Position numbers and translations under genes: made by a program
Source: Rhodospirillales bacterium
Lineage (GTDB): Bacteria; Pseudomonadota; Alphaproteobacteria; Rhodospirillales; Casp-alpha2
Direction of reading: 5' to 3'
NCBI GenBank assembly: GCA_013203595.1
Contig: JABMNT010000011.1
Location: forward strand, 1 to 49,677
DNA length: 49,677 nt
Part shown: positions 29,301 through 49,677 of the stretch, in pieces
Position numbering within the stretch: position 1 is the stretch's first letter
How the letters are laid out: the number at the start of each line of letters is the position of its first letter
The notes under the pieces: generated by a model
Database searches by the model: none
The model's input: only the letters and a program-made list of their open reading frames with translations
What the model was told of the DNA's origin: nothing

Positions 29301-30551
29301 TTAGGACAGGGATCGTCCGGTCCCGGCAACTGTGTCCCGGCACAGGGTTTCGATGACCACCCGCCGGTTGCGGTCGTTCTTGACGCCGTCAACGGTGTGG
29401 ATATTCAGCCAGCGTTCACCCCAGCCCTTGACCGCGCCCACAGCAATCTGCCTGTCGCGCAACAGCGCCGCCACATGTTCGGCGCGCTGCAATGAAAGCT
29501 CCAGGTTTTTCTGGTCGCCGCCCAGAGTGTCGGAAAATCCCATGACATTGGACAGGCAATGGCCGGCGCGGCTGTATTCGACGATATTGGCGACGATCGG
29601 GTTGATGATCTGCTCCGGTGCCGCATCGGTAACCTGACCGAGAGCAAAATACACGGTCTGGTTCAGGCTGTCGTCGCGGGCCCCCGGCTGGGCCGGTAGG
29701 GGCGCCGGCGCCGGGGTGGCCGAGGCCATCAGCCCCTCGGTTCGCAATTCCATAAAGGCTCTGAATTTCTCCTGATCCCTGCGCAGGGTGGTCATCTCCT
29801 GCTGGAACGCTGTGATCCGGCCATTCAGTTCACCCAGTGCCGCAGTGACCGCGGCGGAAACCTGATCAGGGGTGATCGCGGCCCGGGCGGCCGCCTGTTG
29901 GCCGATGACGCCGATGTCGCGGATCGCCTCGGCCCTGAGGTCGGCAACCCGGCGCAAAAGGCCCGCCTGTCCGGCCCGGACCTCTTTCATGTCGCCGTTC
30001 ATCTCGGCCAGGGCCGCGGCCACGGCGGCGGAAATCTGATCCGGGGTGATCGCGGTCGGGGCGGCTGCCTGGCGTGCCTTGATCTCTTCGATTGTGCCAT
30101 TGATCTGGCCCAGGGCCGCGGTCACGGCCGTGGAAATCTGTGCCGGGGTCACCGGCGTTGCGGCCGGGGCCTTGTCAGACAGGGCCCTGATCCCGTCGAC
30201 GGTTTGCGTCCTGAGCGCAGCGAAATCCCGGGCCAGACCGGCCTGGCCACCCTGCAGCCCGTTTATCTGGTCACCCAGAGCGCCAAGCGCCGTGGTGACG
30301 GCGGTCGAGATCGCAGTTGATACCTGGTCGGGGGTGACCGCTGTCTGGGCGGTCGACTGTGCGGCAAAGGACTTGATCTCCCTGAGGGTTTCCGATTTCA
30401 GATCGAGCACAACCCGAATCATATCCGTCTGTCCCGCTTCAATCCGCTCGCCGACACCCTGAAAGCCCAGATAGGACAGGGGCAGCGCGACGCCGAGGAC
30501 GATGACGGCGGAAACAAGGGATGTGGCGAAAATCATTTTGCCGGGGGTCAT
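29301..30551 (-). CDS. Membrane-anchored coiled-coil protein with OmpA-like C-terminus
   Basis: 416 residues. One N-terminal membrane helix (ATSLVSAVIVLGVALPLSY), then a periplasmic stalk with four internal repeats around residues 72-97, 134-152, 168-187 and 226-244, each containing a TPDQVSAAV-TALGELNG-like block, interleaved with coiled-coil segments, and a C-terminal OmpA-like peptidoglycan-binding domain (AEHVAALLRDRQIAVGAVKG, ending with NDRNRRVVIETL). Likely links the inner membrane to the wall, like MotB/Pal-type proteins. Start at 30551 has AAGGAG before it. Divergent from the chemotaxis receptor gene. Confidence 0.8.
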   Translation of the reverse strand: MTPGKMIFATSLVSAVIVLGVALPLSYLGFQGVGERIEAGQTDMIRVVLDLKSETLREIKSFAAQSTAQTAVTPDQVSTAISTAVTTALGALGDQINGLQGGQAGLARDFAALRTQTVDGIRALSDKAPAATPVTPAQISTAVTAALGQINGTIEEIKARQAAAPTAITPDQISAAVAAALAEMNGDMKEVRAGQAGLLRRVADLRAEAIRDIGVIGQQAAARAAITPDQVSAAVTAALGELNGRITAFQQEMTTLRRDQEKFRAFMELRTEGLMASATPAPAPLPAQPGARDDSLNQTVYFALGQVTDAAPEQIINPIVANIVEYSRAGHCLSNVMGFSDTLGGDQKNLELSLQRAEHVAALLRDRQIAVGAVKGWGERWLNIHTVDGVKNDRNRRVVIETLCRDTVAGTGRSLS

Positions 30552-30573
30552 GGCCTTCTCCTTATTCAGTCCC

Positions 30574-30592
30574 TGTCGACACAATGTCGACA
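30574..30592. promoter_or_regulatory. Two tandem TGTCGACA palindromes
   Basis: The 8-bp palindrome TGTCGACA occurs at 30574-30581 and again at 30585-30592. The start-to-start distance of 11 bases places both on the same helix face, 23-41 bases upstream of the OmpA-like start. Good candidate for an operator of a dimeric regulator in the divergent region. Confidence 0.5.
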
Positions 30593-31057
30593 CCGGAATC
30601 GCAATACCATGATACACCTCTTTGGCCTATCACGCATGCCTGCAAGGGGAGCAGGCGGACCGCACCCGGTAAAAACCGCCTTGGCGACGGATAAAGTATT
30701 GCCGGTTTTGGTAAACAAACCGTAAACACCTGGTGATTCCATACTAACAGGAAAGGTACTAAGGCACCGCTCTGGTCTCCACTGCCATCTGCAGCGGCAG
30801 TGACGCCGACACGGATATCAGGCCGGTTGCTGCCATTATCCGGTATCCGTGGCGCAGCCGGACCGGGCGCTGCCAGCATGCCTTGTTCACAGGCTGTAAC
30901 ACCAATTTAAGACATATTACCCGGTTTTGTCTTCCTTTCGGGTCAGGGGAACTCTATTGCTTCCCCTGTCGGGCCTCCGCTGGAAGGCGGGCCCATGCGC
31001 GTGGAACCGACAAGCGAACGACGGTGTGCCCGCATAATTCTCAGGAAGGAATGAAAT
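30593..31057. other. Divergent intergenic region with strong stem-loops before the chemotaxis gene
   Basis: About 470 bases without a gene. Stem-loops: CACTGCC/GGCAGTG (30780-30802, 9-base loop); CAGGGGAA/TTCCCCTG (30944-30968, 9-base loop); directly after it GGGCC/GGCCC (from 30971). The latter two would lie in the 5' leader of the MCP gene or end an unseen transcript. No known riboswitch consensus recognised. Confidence 0.4.
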
Positions 31058-34327: not shown

Positions 34328-35425
34328 GTGAGTAGCGGCCCTGTGTATTCAAAAGGCGTGGACATTTCTTGTAACCCTCCGCAAGAGATCTCGTATCCTT
34401 TGCCGAAGGCGCGGCTGACGGCACTGGCGATCCTTCCTGTTGTCTTTGCATTGTTGGGGCTTTTCCTGCTGGTCGATGCCGTCACGGCAGGAGAGAGCAA
34501 GCGCGGTAACGATTCTGTTTCGCTACCGGATATCGAACCCATTTCTGCGATACCGCTCAAAGTCGATGTTAACTGGGACAAGGTCGCGCTGGGCGAAAAA
34601 CTATTCAATGACCCCCGGCTGTCGCATGATGGTTTCTTGGCCTGCGCCTCTTGCCATCAACTGGATCAGGGGGGAGACGACGGCCTGCCCCTGTCCATCA
34701 CGAACACCGGCGAACCTGGCGTCATCAATGCACCCACGGTTTTCAACAGCGCGTTTAACTTTCGCCTCACTTGGCGTGGGCGCTTTCGTACGTTGGACGA
34801 TCAGGTCGAGGCCGTCCTACACAATCCTATGGAGATGAATACGAACTGGACCGAGATTCTGCCTAAGCTTCAGGCCGATGCTGACTATACGGTCCTTTTC
34901 AGCCGTCTCTATCTGGACGGGATAAAGGGGAAAAACGTCCTCGATGCCATATCCAATTTTCAACGCTCACTTATCACGCCCAACGCGCGGTTCGACCAGT
35001 ATCTTCGTGGCCGGCGCGACGCGCTGACCGAAGATGAGAAACAGGGCTATCAATTGTTCAGGACATACGGCTGCGCGGCGTGTCATCAAGGGGTAAATGT
35101 GGGCGGCAATCTGTACCAGAAACTGGGAATCTTCATGGACTACTTCGCCGGCCGTGGCAAAGTCACTGAGGCGGATTTCGGTCGCTTTCTCGAAACCGGC
35201 GCCGACAGCGACCGTTACGTTTTCCGGGTTCCCAGTCTGCGAAACGTCGCAGTGACCGCGCCTTATTTTCACGATGGCAGCGTCAGCGATTTGGAGGAAG
35301 CCGTCCAAAAGATGGGCGAGGTGCAACTGGGGGAAACCCTTGCAAAGGCGGAAATTAGCCTCATCGTGAAATTTTTGCGCTCCCTGACCGGCGAATATCG
35401 GGGCCGGTCTCTGGATATGGAATAG
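34328..35425 (+). CDS. Di-heme cytochrome c peroxidase / MauG-family protein
   Basis: 365 residues with an N-terminal membrane anchor (TALAILPVVFALLGLFLLVD, residues 31-50). Two c-type heme sites: CASCH (106-110) and CAACH (249-253). Segments such as GEPGVINAPTVFNSAFNFR and FRVPSLRNVAVTAPYFHDG fit the cytochrome c peroxidase/MauG family, which uses peroxide or modifies protein residues. GTG start with GAGG 6 bases upstream. First gene of a unit with the sensor kinase, which begins 4 bases after its stop. Role with the oxidase (peroxide removal, electron entry) is inferred. Confidence 0.88.
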   Translation: MSSGPVYSKGVDISCNPPQEISYPLPKARLTALAILPVVFALLGLFLLVDAVTAGESKRGNDSVSLPDIEPISAIPLKVDVNWDKVALGEKLFNDPRLSHDGFLACASCHQLDQGGDDGLPLSITNTGEPGVINAPTVFNSAFNFRLTWRGRFRTLDDQVEAVLHNPMEMNTNWTEILPKLQADADYTVLFSRLYLDGIKGKNVLDAISNFQRSLITPNARFDQYLRGRRDALTEDEKQGYQLFRTYGCAACHQGVNVGGNLYQKLGIFMDYFAGRGKVTEADFGRFLETGADSDRYVFRVPSLRNVAVTAPYFHDGSVSDLEEAVQKMGEVQLGETLAKAEISLIVKFLRSLTGEYRGRSLDME

Positions 35426-40495: not shown

Positions 40496-40520
40496 AAAAA
40501 TAAAGATGGGGAAAACTAAG

Positions 40521-41936
40521 ATGGCCGAGCGTACCGCTGAATTAACCCGTGAAGAACTTGACGATTTGGTCGATGTTCCGCTGGTTCGTTTGTGGCTGTA
40601 TTGGGGTCTTTTCTGGCTCATGGTTACGCCGACCTTCGGCGCAATGGCCGCGACTTTGTTCAACTATCCGGATTATCTGGGAACGTCTTTGGAGTTGGGT
40701 TTCGGCCGATTGCGGCCGATGCATGTCAACGGGGTCATATTCGGCGCCTTTTCTACATTGTTCTTTGGGCTTTGCTACTACCTCGTGCCCCGGCTCTGCT
40801 GCGTGCGAATGTATGGTGGCCGTCTTGGCCATTACTTGGTCTGGATTTTTAATCTGGCGTTGGCCGCCGGCATGGTGTCGCTTGCGCTCGGCTATAATCA
40901 GGGCCTCGAGGCGGGCGAGCTTCCGTATTTCATCGACCTCGCCATCTTCGTCGTATTTGTAGCACTTACCGTTCAACTTCTGATGACCGTCGCCAGGCGG
41001 ACTGAACCACAGCTCTACGTCTCCATGTGGTACATGGTCGCGGCCATGGTGTGGACCGTGATGAATTTGATCCTGGGGGCCTTTATTCTCCCCTTCTCGT
41101 TCGCCGGGATCAATAGCGCTGCCTGGCACGGCCTTTTTATCCATTATATCGTGGGTTTGTGGATCACGCCGGCCGGTTATGTCATTATCTACTACTTCCT
41201 CCCCGCCAGCATTCAGAACCCGATCTACAGTCACAAGCTGTCGCTGATTGGATTCTGGTCGCTGGCACTCTTCTACCCATTCGTCGGCATCCACCATTAT
41301 CTCTTCAGCCCGATCGCGGATTGGGCCGAAACCCTGGCTATCATCACGTCCATGTTGCTGATCGTGCCGGTATGGACAGTGCTGCAGAATTTCTTCGGCA
41401 CCATGATCGGCCGCTGGAAAACGTTTGGCCCAAACCTGCCGGCCAAGTTTCTGATCATGGGATCGCTGATGTACCTCATCGGCTGCTTCCAGGGATCGGT
41501 CGAGGCGTTGCGCTCCATACAGGAACCAACCCACTTCACCGATTTCGTTATCAGCCATTCGCACCTTACGGTATTTGGTACATTCGTGATCTGGGCAATC
41601 GGCGGAACGCTCTATGTCTGGCCAAAAATCCACGGCCGGGAACTTTGGTCCTTCAAGCTCGGAAATTGGTCGTTCTGGCTAATTACCCTGGGCCTCTCCG
41701 TCATGGCGGTGGATCTGTCGGCTGCTGGGTTGCAGCAGGGCTTCATGTGGATGACCGGCACCGAGTGGATGAATTCCTTGGTTCCGCTTCTTCCCTACTG
41801 GCTGGTGCGTACCTTGGCGGGAATAACAATGGATATTGGTATGTCGCTATTAGTGTTTAACCTGATGATGACCACACTCACCAGTTCGGAATCAGCCCCG
41901 CAGGGCGAGGTGGCAGTCGAGGGAGCAGCAGAATGA
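40521..41936 (+). CDS. ccoN: cbb3-type cytochrome c oxidase subunit I (CcoN-like)
   Basis: 471-residue catalytic subunit with about 12 membrane helices; reduces O2 at heme b3-CuB. All six expected histidines are visible: His68 (RPMHVNGVIFG), His208 (GLFIHYIVGL), the CuB pair His258-His259 (VGIHHYLFS) and His346/His348 (VISHSHLTVFG). Tyr252 near the CuB pair fits the cbb3 cross-linked tyrosine. The sequence differs markedly from common CcoN, for example in the loops. ATG 40521 follows GGGG; an ATG at 40506 is less likely. Overlaps the CcoO-type gene by 4 bases (ATGA). Confidence 0.9.
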   Translation: MAERTAELTREELDDLVDVPLVRLWLYWGLFWLMVTPTFGAMAATLFNYPDYLGTSLELGFGRLRPMHVNGVIFGAFSTLFFGLCYYLVPRLCCVRMYGGRLGHYLVWIFNLALAAGMVSLALGYNQGLEAGELPYFIDLAIFVVFVALTVQLLMTVARRTEPQLYVSMWYMVAAMVWTVMNLILGAFILPFSFAGINSAAWHGLFIHYIVGLWITPAGYVIIYYFLPASIQNPIYSHKLSLIGFWSLALFYPFVGIHHYLFSPIADWAETLAIITSMLLIVPVWTVLQNFFGTMIGRWKTFGPNLPAKFLIMGSLMYLIGCFQGSVEALRSIQEPTHFTDFVISHSHLTVFGTFVIWAIGGTLYVWPKIHGRELWSFKLGNWSFWLITLGLSVMAVDLSAAGLQQGFMWMTGTEWMNSLVPLLPYWLVRTLAGITMDIGMSLLVFNLMMTTLTSSESAPQGEVAVEGAAE

Positions 41937-43669
41937 ACTCGCGCACCGTTGCTTTGATCTCCGGATTCCTGTTCCTGACTCTCGCGGCATTCACGCAAGG
42001 CGTGTTGCCTATGCTGGAACCCCAATCCCGCTCTGCGAAGGTCACCAAGGTGGTTCGCACCAATCTCGGCGAACTGAAGTGGATGGAAGCGAAGGCGACC
42101 GACTACACGGCGAAACAGGCGCTCGGTCGCAAGGTCTATATCCGGGAAGGCTGTTGGTATTGTCACTCGCAGTTTGTGCGACCGGTGACTGGTGAGACGC
42201 GCCGTTGGGGACCGGTCAGCCAGGCTGGTGAATATGCCTTCGATGTACCTCACTTGTTTTCGACGCGGCGCATCGGGCCCGATCTGACCCGTGTCGGTTT
42301 GAAATACAGCGATGAATGGCATCTCGCCCATTTTTGGAATCCGCGTATGGTGGTCCCGGATTCGATCATGCCGAGATTCGCCGAGCTGTTTGATGCGCCT
42401 GAGGAGCGGGTCCCCGTCGTCGACGGTGACGCCGGGGTCAAGACCCTGGCGCGCACAGCGGCGAGCGAAGCGATGTTCGACTTTTCCAGCAAGGAGAAGA
42501 TCCAGCTGACACCCAACGCCGATGGATTGCTGTTCGTTCCGGAGCGAGGCAAAAATCCGGTCATCTTCACGCCCAATAAGGAATTCACCGGCGCTTCGGT
42601 CCGCTTAGCCGCGGTCACCCCGGAACTCGAGGGGCTGGTTGCCTATATCCAGAAGCTCGGCACCAATCGCGGCAAGTGGCGTGATCGGTTTGAGCCCCAG
42701 TTGATAAGTGCATCGCAGGTATCGATGCCGCTCTCCGAGGAATGGATCGGCCACGGCAAGCAGGTCTACGAACGGCGCTGTTTGGGTTGTCACGGGGTCA
42801 AGGGCGACGGCAATGGTCCCGCCGCCACCTTCATGCACGCGGTGCGCCCACGGGACTTCACCCTCGGCGTGTTCAAGTTCCACCTGACACCATCCGGTTC
42901 TATGCCGACAGATGGAGACCTGCTGCGCACCATAACCCAGGGCATACGGGGCACTGCCATGCCGACATGGCATATGCTGTCGGAGAAGGACCGGCTTTCC
43001 GTCATCCAGTATATTAAATACGTGCTGGCGGCGGATCGCAGCGATCCGAAGAACCCTTATTTGTATTTCATCGAGGAACCGCCCAAGCCGCCTGTTTACA
43101 TCGGCCAACCACCGGCCCCGTCGGAGTCGCTGGTCGCCCGTGGTGGCGAGGTCTGGCTGCAGGCTAAATGCTGGGAGTGCCACGGCGAAAAGGGCAGGGG
43201 CGATGGTACGAAAGCGGTAGGTCTGATGAACGATTTCGGCTATCCGATTCCACCGGCCAACCTGACCACGGGCCAGTTCAAGTCGGGTCCCTTGGTCCAG
43301 GATATATTTAGAACGGTGACGAATGGCCTGCGAGGCACGCCAATGCCGTCCTACGCGAAACCGATTGCGGAAGCGGATCGCTGGGCTCTGGCGTATTATA
43401 TCCTTTCGCTTTCCGCGTACACTGACCCCCTGACGGGAGAAAAGTTGAATATTTCCGCTGAGGATCGCGCGGCGCTGAATGACCCCGGTCTGAAGGCCTC
43501 GACCTCGAGTCAGGCTTATGCACCACCACAGCCAAGCTCCTCGCTTAGCGGTGCCTATGGCGGTGATGCCTGGGCGGGGCGTAAAGGCATGGAAATCGTG
43601 AAACCCGGGAGCAAGCCGAAGCCTACCGCCCAGGTGAAACCCAATCGGAAAGGCAAGGACGATGGTTGA
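41933..43669 (+). CDS. CcoO-type cytochrome fused to two extra cytochrome c domains
   Basis: 578 residues, three c-heme sites: C74-W-Y-C-H78 in a typical CcoO context (REGCWYCHSQFVRPVTGETR, with a membrane anchor at residues 3-25), C283-L-G-C-H287 and C413-W-E-C-H417, the last two in a CcoP-like di-heme part with axial-Met candidates in GTAMPTW and GTPMPSY. Thus one polypeptide appears to carry the functions normally split between CcoO and CcoP. A ~65-residue insertion follows the first heme domain. The lysine-rich tail ends KGKDDG. It would pass electrons to CcoN. The stop overlaps the CcoS-like gene. Confidence 0.88.
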   Translation: MNSRTVALISGFLFLTLAAFTQGVLPMLEPQSRSAKVTKVVRTNLGELKWMEAKATDYTAKQALGRKVYIREGCWYCHSQFVRPVTGETRRWGPVSQAGEYAFDVPHLFSTRRIGPDLTRVGLKYSDEWHLAHFWNPRMVVPDSIMPRFAELFDAPEERVPVVDGDAGVKTLARTAASEAMFDFSSKEKIQLTPNADGLLFVPERGKNPVIFTPNKEFTGASVRLAAVTPELEGLVAYIQKLGTNRGKWRDRFEPQLISASQVSMPLSEEWIGHGKQVYERRCLGCHGVKGDGNGPAATFMHAVRPRDFTLGVFKFHLTPSGSMPTDGDLLRTITQGIRGTAMPTWHMLSEKDRLSVIQYIKYVLAADRSDPKNPYLYFIEEPPKPPVYIGQPPAPSESLVARGGEVWLQAKCWECHGEKGRGDGTKAVGLMNDFGYPIPPANLTTGQFKSGPLVQDIFRTVTNGLRGTPMPSYAKPIAEADRWALAYYILSLSAYTDPLTGEKLNISAEDRAALNDPGLKASTSSQAYAPPQPSSSLSGAYGGDAWAGRKGMEIVKPGSKPKPTAQVKPNRKGKDDG

Positions 43670-47173: not shown

Positions 47174-47236
47174 GCCATGTGCGTCCAGGCCCGGAGAAAT
47201 CCTTCGATGCAGCAAGATCATTCACGAGGTCAGAGG

Positions 47237-48316
47237 ATGCGTGGCCGCCGGTGTTCCGTTGCCTGTGCATTGCTGTTTTGGATGGGCGCATTGTTTGTCG
47301 TCAGCGGCGCTGGTATTTCATATGCCGGGGAGGGTGTCTCGGTTTCGGTTGAGCAGCTGATGGATATCCTGAAAGGGGCCGATACCCCGGAAGCCCGCCA
47401 GCACGCGGCTGAACGCCTGGGTACTTTGGGACGTGATCCTCGGATCGAGGCCGTGGCCGCCGCCCTGATCGAAGCCCTCAACTGGGATCTCCAGCCAAGG
47501 GTCCGCGGCCACGCCGCCGCCGCCCTCGGCGAGATTGGTTTAGCGACAGAGGGCGTTCTCCCCGCTCTCGCCGATGCGCTCTTAGTGGATACGGATCCGG
47601 AAGTTCGCGGGCGCACTGCCGCAGCGCTTGGCATGATCGGTCCGGCAGCGAGACGTGCTGTCCCAGCCCTGATCGAGGCCCTCGACGCAGACGACCACCT
47701 CGGGGTTCGTTGGCATGTTTCACGCGCCCTCGGGAACATCGGCCTGGCGACAGAGGAGGTCGTTACTGCCCTGATCGAGGCGCTCGTCCGTGATGAACGT
47801 TCGGGGGTCCGCGCGCGCGCCGCCGTCTCGCTTGGGATGCTTGGTGCGACGACGGGGAACGTTGCACCAGCCTTGATTGAGGCGCTTGGCTGGGATCCGC
47901 ATCCTGGGGTCCGCCTGTCAGCGGTGGAGGCCCTTGGGCAGCTCGGTCCTGTAACCGACGAGGTTGCTCCCGCCCTGATTGAGGCGCTCGGCAACGATGA
48001 GCACTCGGGGGTTCGAATGGGCGCCGCCCAGGCCCTGGGCAAGATCGGTCCGGTGACAGAGAAGGTCATTCCCACCCTGATCGAGGCGCTCGCCAGGGAT
48101 GAGGAACCGGGAGTGCATAGCTACGCCGCAGAGGCCCTTGGGGCTAGTGTAAATATCCTGCGAAACTCTCAAACCCCGTCGTCGATAAGCGCGCTGAAGG
48201 AGGTGTTGGCGGCTCTCGAGAGGCACCGAGTTTCTCGGATAAGAATGAACGCTGATACAGTGCGTGGTGCGATCCGGGTTCCCGAGCGGAAACGGCAGTC
48301 TCAGGGCAGGAAATAG
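47237..48316 (+). CDS. Exported HEAT-repeat protein
   Basis: 359 residues. A signal peptide (CALLFWMGALFVVSGAGISYA) is followed by about seven HEAT-like repeats of roughly 42 residues, each ending with a pattern like VAPALIEALGWDPHPGVRLS; the DNA repeats a CCCTGATCGAGGC-like block many times. Such proteins form helical solenoids for protein contact, here probably in the periplasm for the oxidase or its assembly. ATG 47237 has GAGG 7-8 bases upstream and gives the best signal peptide; ATG 47177 and 47207 are alternatives. No close function known. Confidence 0.78.
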   Translation: MRGRRCSVACALLFWMGALFVVSGAGISYAGEGVSVSVEQLMDILKGADTPEARQHAAERLGTLGRDPRIEAVAAALIEALNWDLQPRVRGHAAAALGEIGLATEGVLPALADALLVDTDPEVRGRTAAALGMIGPAARRAVPALIEALDADDHLGVRWHVSRALGNIGLATEEVVTALIEALVRDERSGVRARAAVSLGMLGATTGNVAPALIEALGWDPHPGVRLSAVEALGQLGPVTDEVAPALIEALGNDEHSGVRMGAAQALGKIGPVTEKVIPTLIEALARDEEPGVHSYAAEALGASVNILRNSQTPSSISALKEVLAALERHRVSRIRMNADTVRGAIRVPERKRQSQGRK

Positions 48317-48552
48317 ATCATCCATAACTTCATGGCCTGTGCCGAAAGATATTCAGAACGCGCAGCTTGTGTGCTTTGTGTTTTCTGACGGCTCCTCGCT
48401 CGGCGGTGGAAAATCGGTGCCCGAAGGGACCCCAACTGTCTGACGTCAGTGCCTATGGGACTTATTGAAGGGTTTGCACAACGGAGGCTCTGACTCATCT
48501 TGGTTTGAAGCCGGACAATCTCTAAACGTAAAAAATGATTGGGAGTTTTATA
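48317..48552. other. Intergenic region after the oxidase operon
   Basis: About 235 bases; no convincing coding frame or mobile-element homology recognised. Separates the HEAT gene and the truncated copper chaperone gene. Confidence 0.3.
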
Positions 48553-48704
48553 ATGTATCGCGGTATTGCGTCTATCGGCTTCATTATCCTGTTGATTGGC
48601 ACAGCCACAGCTTCGGCAGACGATTATAAGGACGGTGGCCTTACGGTCAGCCACTCCTGGGCACGGGCATCAGCCGGCAAGGCAAAGGCGGGCGCTGCCG
48701 ACAT
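48553..48704 (+). pseudogene. PCu(A)C copper chaperone, truncated by a transposon end
   Basis: A signal peptide (GIASIGFIILLIGTATASAD) and the beginning of a PCuAC domain (GGLTVSHSWARASAGKAKAG) are present, then the frame changes to unrelated residues exactly where a Tn3-type terminal repeat begins (48705). The histidine/methionine copper site is missing. GGGAG lies 8 bases before the ATG. PCuAC proteins bring copper to oxidases, so loss would matter for the nearby oxidase. Confidence 0.75.
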
Positions 48705-48741
48705 GGGGTCCGTTGCGGTAGGGGCGGTTTGATACCCTAAG
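48705..48741. repeat. Tn3-family terminal inverted repeat (one end)
   Basis: 37 bases beginning GGGGTCCGTTGCGG and ending ACCCTAAG. Tn3-family elements have 35-40-bp ends that start with GGGG and finish with TAAG. It breaks the PCuAC gene and lies upstream of a truncated Tn3-type transposase N-terminus. No second copy found downstream. Confidence 0.72.
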
Positions 48742-48827
48742 GAATTAGATGCCGGCCCAAACCCTCTCTGGTTCATGGATTGCAAAGCCCCGATTTTACT
48801 GGCGGGATCTTTGTTCAGTTCGAACAA

Positions 48828-49045
48828 ATGACCAGCTGGAACAAATTCATGCCAAGACGCACTATATTGATATTGACCGACCGCCAAAGGGCTTTGCTTC
48901 TCAACCTTCCTATAGATGATCCAGCACGTCTTATATATTACACGTTGGCGAATGACGGTCTGGCGCATCTATGGCGGTGGAGGAGGCCGGAGAATCAGCC
49001 TGGCTTTACATTGCAGCACTGTGCATTGAGATATTCTGGGCGTCG
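48828..49045 (+). pseudogene. Tn3-family transposase, N-terminal fragment
   Basis: FMPRRTILILTDRQRALLLN, then LPIDDPARLIYYTLANDGLA and RRPENQPGFTLQHCALRY are typical of the Tn3 TnpA N-terminus (DUF4158). The frame then runs into unrelated sequence (junction near 49041-49049) after about 70 codons; the catalytic DDE part is missing. Confidence 0.8.
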
Positions 49046-49292
49046 GATGCAGATGCGCCGCTCACCGACGATGAATTCGAACGCGGACGCACAGCAATGC
49101 TCGCCCCTCAATCGCGTTTTGCAACGGGACTATCACAACAGGATTTTGCCAAACGTTTCGGCATTCCCGTGGCCTCTCTAAGAGACTGGAAACATGGGCG
49201 CAGAACGCCTGACAGGGCCGCGCAAAGCTACCTGCGTGTGATTGCAAAAAATGCCTGACGATGTGGCAAAGGTTCTGCACAATGCAGCCTGA
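49041..49292 (+). pseudogene. HTH antitoxin C-terminal remnant with frameshift
   Basis: DADAPLTDDEFERGRTAML is followed by the helix-turn-helix GLSQQDFAKRFGIPVASLRD and GRRTPDRAAQSYLRVIAKN. In the original frame a stop (TGA, 49256-49258) follows, but one base later the next frame continues PDDVAKVLHNAA to a stop at 49292, as in typical HigA-like antitoxins. N-terminus is lost at the junction with the Tn3 fragment. Confidence 0.7.
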
Positions 49293-49360
49293 CCAACCCC
49301 TGGCCTTTGACAGCAAAAACCGGTTCGCCATCACATCGCATCGTCCTCGCATTCTGTTCG
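49293..49360. other. Short non-coding link
   Basis: No feature recognised. Confidence 0.3.
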
Positions 49361-49605
49361 TCAGTTTCTTCGTTTTCCGGGCGCCTCCTGAGCCGTATTG
49401 TCCGTCGCCAGCTGTGGCTTTTGGTAAACCTCCTGGCGCACCATCAGGACCCAGGCAATGCCGGTGACTTCATTGGCCATGGCTACGGCGACCAGTCAGG
49501 CCGGCTTTTGTCGCAGCAATCCGCTCGCTGACGCTCTGATAGCCCATAGAGGACAGCGCCAGCGCCACAACCGCCACACCAGCGGCACAAAGCCACTGCT
49601 TGCAC
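49361..49605 (-). pseudogene. Frameshifted remnant of a small membrane protein
   Basis: Two frames join by removing one base: VAVVALALSSMGYQSVSERI followed by AATKAGLT, then VAVAMANEVTGIAWVLMVRQ to KRRN and stop. A block of about 53 bases (near 49517-49570) resembles the N-terminus of the OmpA-like gene (around 30430-30500), including the GYQSVSERI/GFQGVGERI segment. Probably a decayed relative; exact family unknown. Confidence 0.5.
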
Positions 49606-49641
49606 CGGCACAGATCTCAGGCTAAGTTGCGCCCGTTTCCA
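49606..49641. other. Upstream flank of tRNA-Arg
   Basis: 36 bases with no feature recognised; would contain the tRNA promoter. Confidence 0.2.

Positions 49642-49677
<36 letters not shown>

Follow-up and report, generated by a model that had tools for sequence, protein, structure and literature searches.

A probable Tn3-family transposon scar in an accessory PCuAC copper chaperone gene of a Rhodospirillales bacterium

An accessory gene for the copper chaperone PCuAC breaks off exactly at a Tn3-family transposon end in this Rhodospirillales genome, and the site can with good confidence be read as a transposon scar. The window (the whole stretch of DNA analysed, 49,677 nucleotides) is the entire contig C114 of a 4.58 Mb genome assembled in 288 contigs. 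Its last 1.25 kb, 3' of a HEAT-repeat protein gene, is a row of broken pieces, and the case for a scar lies in the independent identification of each: the 5' part of the PCuAC gene, a Tn3 terminal repeat, a stretch resembling a res region, the start of a transposase gene and a fragment of an antitoxin gene.

The PCuAC piece (48553-48699, plus strand) starts with an ATG at 48553 and runs for 49 codons, comprising a signal-peptide-like start and the first conserved stretch of the protein. Its residues 3-49 score 38.3 bits against a PCuAC profile built from 30 proteins (29 from loci of relatives and one from the C239 gene of the same genome, the window being excluded); when those letters were shuffled 20,000 times, no shuffle exceeded 11.5 bits. 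At the DNA level, blastn with 48501-48704 matches the PCuAC gene in 11 loci, leaving aside a match in L080 that falls outside that locus's PCuAC gene; similarity ends at 48698-48699 in nine of the 11 and earlier in two (L088 and L099). With Pfam the fragment gave no family at E ≤ 1, the PF04314 cut-off not being reached; it matched nothing among plasmids at E ≤ 1 and nothing among solved structures at E ≤ 10. The break that the first-pass annotation placed exactly at a Tn3-family end is thus borne out: by the profile score, by the point at which blastn similarity ends, and by the GACAT and the repeat that follow from there.

What is left of the gene would make no chaperone. The reading frame runs on into the Tn3 repeat and stops at 48732, and the stump ends before the His/Met-rich stretch of related proteins; by eye, the H(M)X10MX21HXM copper-binding motif is absent. 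Set beside PCuAC/PccA proteins (PF04314), the stump has the signal-peptide-like start and the WARASAG...AGAA stretch, and lacks the region that holds the copper site as described in PMC12617631. Any product would be a peptide of no more than about 60 residues with the copper site lacking, so the stump is in all likelihood dead. The 3' half was not found in the 288-contig assembly by the PF04314 search, whose only match in the genome is the intact C239 gene; the same search picked up a fragment of 38 positions in a relative (G049), so the 3' half should have shown. A recent duplication of the resident C239 gene was considered as the source of the stump and rejected: blastn (E ≤ 0.01) finds other PCuAC genes and not C239, and the C239 protein ranks only seventh among the 30 PCuAC proteins compared pairwise. 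The stretch 48553-49045 as a whole matches only itself in the genome (22/22 candidates scored).

Between the stump and the repeat stand five bases, GACAT (48700-48704, plus strand), which may be one half of a 5-bp target duplication. According to PMC4133298, elements of the Tn3 family and derivatives of them generated 5-bp repeats where the target was AT-rich (AACAT in the case of TIME-RES), with 5 or 6 bp given for the non-autonomous ones. GACAT fits this pattern, although one copy proves nothing: it abuts the sole Tn3 end found, and a second GACAT beside another end was not found. The five bases could also be altered PCuAC sequence, since some relatives (L084, L092 and L097) have Tyr-Met at the same point. 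Where the window has Asp, an aromatic residue is found in 24/24 related PCuAC proteins, from the 24 loci confirmed among 593 candidate stretches (at least 24 such loci exist, and the full length of each gene is not assumed).

Directly after GACAT comes the GGGG...TAAG terminal inverted repeat (48705-48741, plus strand), of the 38-bp class and 37 bp long here. It is closest to the repeat of a plasmid element, L052, with 31 identities in 38 columns and one gap. Scored against single plasmid elements and compared with the best of 50 shuffled windows, it reaches 22 against 17 (L052), 20 against 15 (L056) and 18 against 16 (L057); for L059 its score of 14 is below the shuffles' best of 20. The repeat is present once in the genome: a second, inverted copy was not found in the assembly, whether 3 mismatches were allowed or a degenerate pattern was used, and a contig gap could hide one. 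The exact repeat has no match in viral contigs.

Beyond the repeat lies the truncated start of tnpA, of about 65 codons (48849-49042, plus strand). The residues from 48849 onward match PF13700/DUF4158, which we take to be the N-terminal domain of the Tn3 transposase TnpA, with 34.1 bits against a cut-off of 27.4, and tblastn finds matches to this stretch in 2,997 plasmid records, the best at 61.5% identity. The transposase N-terminus that had been read 3' of the repeat is confirmed by both results. At the nucleotide level, a blastn search of plasmids with the Tn3 part found nothing, so the relationship to Tn3 rests on similarity of the protein and of the short repeat. Used as a protein query against the genome contigs, the tnpA fragment gave 592 pattern matches, none of which was confirmed. 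The genome has no match to the Tn3 DDE catalytic domain, PF01526, at E ≤ 0.1, in a search that detected it in 3/14 control genomes and over the cut-off in two. The gene tnpR is missing as well: just 107 bp separate the repeat from tnpA, too short for it. Despite this absence, a MAFFT alignment with eight plasmid elements places the window from about 48756 onward against their tnpR-tnpA intergenic region; on the strength of this alignment the stretch 48756-48848 (plus strand) may be a res region. With tnpR and most of tnpA gone and one end left, the transposon is a relic.

The closest known counterparts are plasmid-borne Tn3 elements of alphaproteobacteria (Roseibium, Rhizobium, Sinorhizobium, Pukyongiella and Sphingobium; L052-L057) with divergent tnpR and tnpA; terminal repeat, tnpR-tnpA intergenic region and TnpA N-terminus are common to them and the window. 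Among the 2,997 plasmid records, the surroundings were examined in eight. Six of these (L052, L054, L055, L056, L057 and L059) have an annotated recombinase gene that diverges from tnpA, at least one 38-bp GGGG...TAAG sequence was found by pattern in seven (all except L058), and a matching inverted pair, again by pattern, in three (L056, L057 and L059). In the four loci where a repeat was found on the same side (L053, L056, L057 and L059), 0.7-2.3 kb lie between repeat and tnpA, as against 107 bp in the window; moreover the window element, unlike the plasmid elements, has no tnpR, about 65 codons of tnpA and a single end. The miniature Tn3 derivatives of TIME type (PMC4133298) are likewise shortened Tn3 elements with a repeat of the 38-bp class, but they are described there as mobile and as having two ends, whereas one end was found here.

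The tnpA similarity stops where similarity to an HTH antitoxin gene starts, at 49043. This fragment (49043-49308, plus strand), with its 5' end missing, is 92.5% identical over 266 columns to a sequence on contig C249, where a BrnT toxin gene (79.5 bits) is followed by an HTH antitoxin gene (HTH_3, 30.5 bits; L018 6156-6681). It has one extra base near its 3' end relative to the C249 copy and, judged from its sequence, appears degenerate. In elements with divergent tnpR and tnpA, toxin-antitoxin modules sit between the two genes according to PMC7157771, in the main text of which BrnT does not occur. The idea that the antitoxin is a Tn3 module in this usual place was rejected: the fragment begins inside tnpA.

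Other remnants flank these pieces. Just upstream of the PCuAC stump, a 63-bp left end (48438-48500, plus strand) begins TGTCTGACGTCAG and lacks the body of its element; we assign it to the IS3 family on the presumption that the orfA-like frames adjoining the same end in two relatives' loci (L007 and L012) are a guide, the name coming from that sequence and not from a search. The end has matches of 76-96% identity in 7/60 relatives and is multicopy in one (G053), often near contig ends. Towards the contig end, a 57-bp stretch (49512-49568) is 81% like 30435-30491, part of the gene 29301-30617, and is perhaps a decayed copy. The contig stops inside a tRNA-Arg(CCG) gene, the 5' half of which occupies 49640-49677; contig C178 starts with the same gene, with an overlap of 38 bp, and the two contigs may be neighbours. 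ARAGORN reported no tRNA in the window, presumably because this gene is cut by the contig end, and Rfam gave nothing at gathering scores for 48300-49677.

While the sequence shows the pieces, how they are joined and which intact copies exist elsewhere, the order of events can only be proposed. A Tn3-family element of the alphaproteobacterial type with divergent tnpR and tnpA would have placed one end behind codon 49 or 50 of the accessory PCuAC gene, either inserting there or arriving by adjacent deletion; deletions would then have taken the second end together with tnpR, the bulk of tnpA and the remainder of the PCuAC gene, and the tnpA stub would have been joined by deletion to the antitoxin gene fragment. 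We infer transposition from the junction alone, because a single end remains and there is no direct repeat to compare. The second end or the PCuAC 3' half could lie in a gap between the 288 contigs.

How the end came to lie in PCuAC admits two routes within this history. In adjacent deletion, the Tn3 element would first have sat 3' of PCuAC; replicative transposition within the same molecule would then have driven its end into the gene and deleted the 3' part; no target duplication is then expected at the junction of PCuAC and repeat. Elements of the Tn3 and IS6 families do cause deletions that start precisely at the element end, as PMC9330008 describes for them, and the PCuAC 3' half and a second repeat were indeed not found in the genome. 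On the sequence at hand, however, this route is indistinguishable from insertion followed by deletion. Measured against that plainer course, and with both taken as forms of the scar, we tentatively assign adjacent deletion rather less than an even share; the two fit about equally, and in both the stump is a by-product. The first-pass annotation had proposed that the interruption would be contradicted by a PCuAC 3' half found nowhere together with a second repeat lacking in all relatives. In this assembly both are indeed missing. The part concerning relatives found no footing: 0/60 carry the tnpA fragment at E ≤ 1e-5, so that no relative is usable for comparing the insertion.

A different account, that of the first-pass annotation, makes the truncated PCuAC a member of an acquired cbb3 oxidase island, so that its loss would weaken copper delivery to that oxidase. 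Proximity speaks for it: the stump lies about 1.4 kb downstream of an ATPase gene, presumably CcoI-like by its sequence. Between stump and island, however, lies the IS3-family remnant, and no such company was found for PCuAC genes elsewhere: neither cco genes nor the HEAT-repeat gene were matched beside any of 24 related PCuAC loci (at least 24 exist; up to 5 kb on each side, among the matches listed) or beside any of 36 other PCuAC loci (mostly 1.5 kb on each side; two regions in this set are counted twice and one locus has no PCuAC match). A Sco gene is nearby in 5/24 of the related loci, among the matches listed. Membership of the stump in the island is accordingly unsupported, and we regard this account as very improbable.

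The island has features of its own. The divergent cbb3 oxidase cluster (40506-43669) encodes a CcoN-like protein whose score, 242.8 bits, compares with a cut-off of 583.15 for ccoN. In the product of the gene that follows (41933-43669; 578 aa), a CcoO-like part is fused to additional cytochrome c domains; none of 60 relatives has a match to this fusion protein at E ≤ 1e-60, a limit that would miss more distant ones. A gene for a MauG/MbnH-like di-heme enzyme (34328-35422) precedes a sensor kinase gene and the oxidase cluster; its best score of 172.6 bits falls short of the curated cut-off, 362.85. Directly 3' of the CcoI-like ATPase gene comes the HEAT-repeat protein gene (47177-48316), with a signal-like N-terminus by eye and repeat units spaced 102 bp.

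Nor is there support for the idea that the break deprives the cell, or the oxidase island, of a copper chaperone. An intact PCuAC gene lies on contig C239 (G000:C239:6272-6784) and scores 134.6 bits to PF04314; it adjoins a gene that we take, from its sequence, to be hrcA, as PCuAC does in 3/3 congeners examined. PF04314 matches are found in 38 of 41 genomes (this one and 40 relatives), and one congener (G003) has a second, weaker match. SCO1-family matches occur in three places (C178, C240 and C98), two of them over the full 134 positions; that on C98 is weak yet over the cut-off. According to PMC12617631, Caulobacter depends on one PCuAC protein for aa3 activity and for cbb3 to be fully active, and supplementing copper can make up for that protein. 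Given the intact PCuAC and the SCO1-family proteins in the genome, and the Caulobacter precedent, the claim of weakened copper delivery lacks support. The hrcA-linked PCuAC and the Sco proteins would be the ones to deliver copper, and the break is probably without effect on the cell. That a foreign cbb3 cluster arrived with its own PCuAC, lost it and came to depend on the host's hrcA-linked chaperone, in a natural chaperone swap, strikes us as highly unlikely.

An assembly artefact joining unrelated pieces at a contig end also seems highly unlikely: the pieces do lie in the last 1.25 kb of a contig that ends inside the tRNA-Arg gene also starting C178, and the antitoxin fragment does have its 92.5% copy on C249, but 48553-49045, including the junction of PCuAC and repeat, matches only itself and so offers no shared repeat to explain a mis-join, and about 7.5% of columns distinguish the two antitoxin copies.

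The stump thus looks like ordinary gene decay, a genomic scar rather than a lost function, and its importance outside this genome is small. It illustrates that the break point of an accessory gene can remain marked by a Tn3 end once the transposon has decayed; and the site carries a warning, that loss of function should not be read from one broken paralogue before the rest of the genome has been checked.
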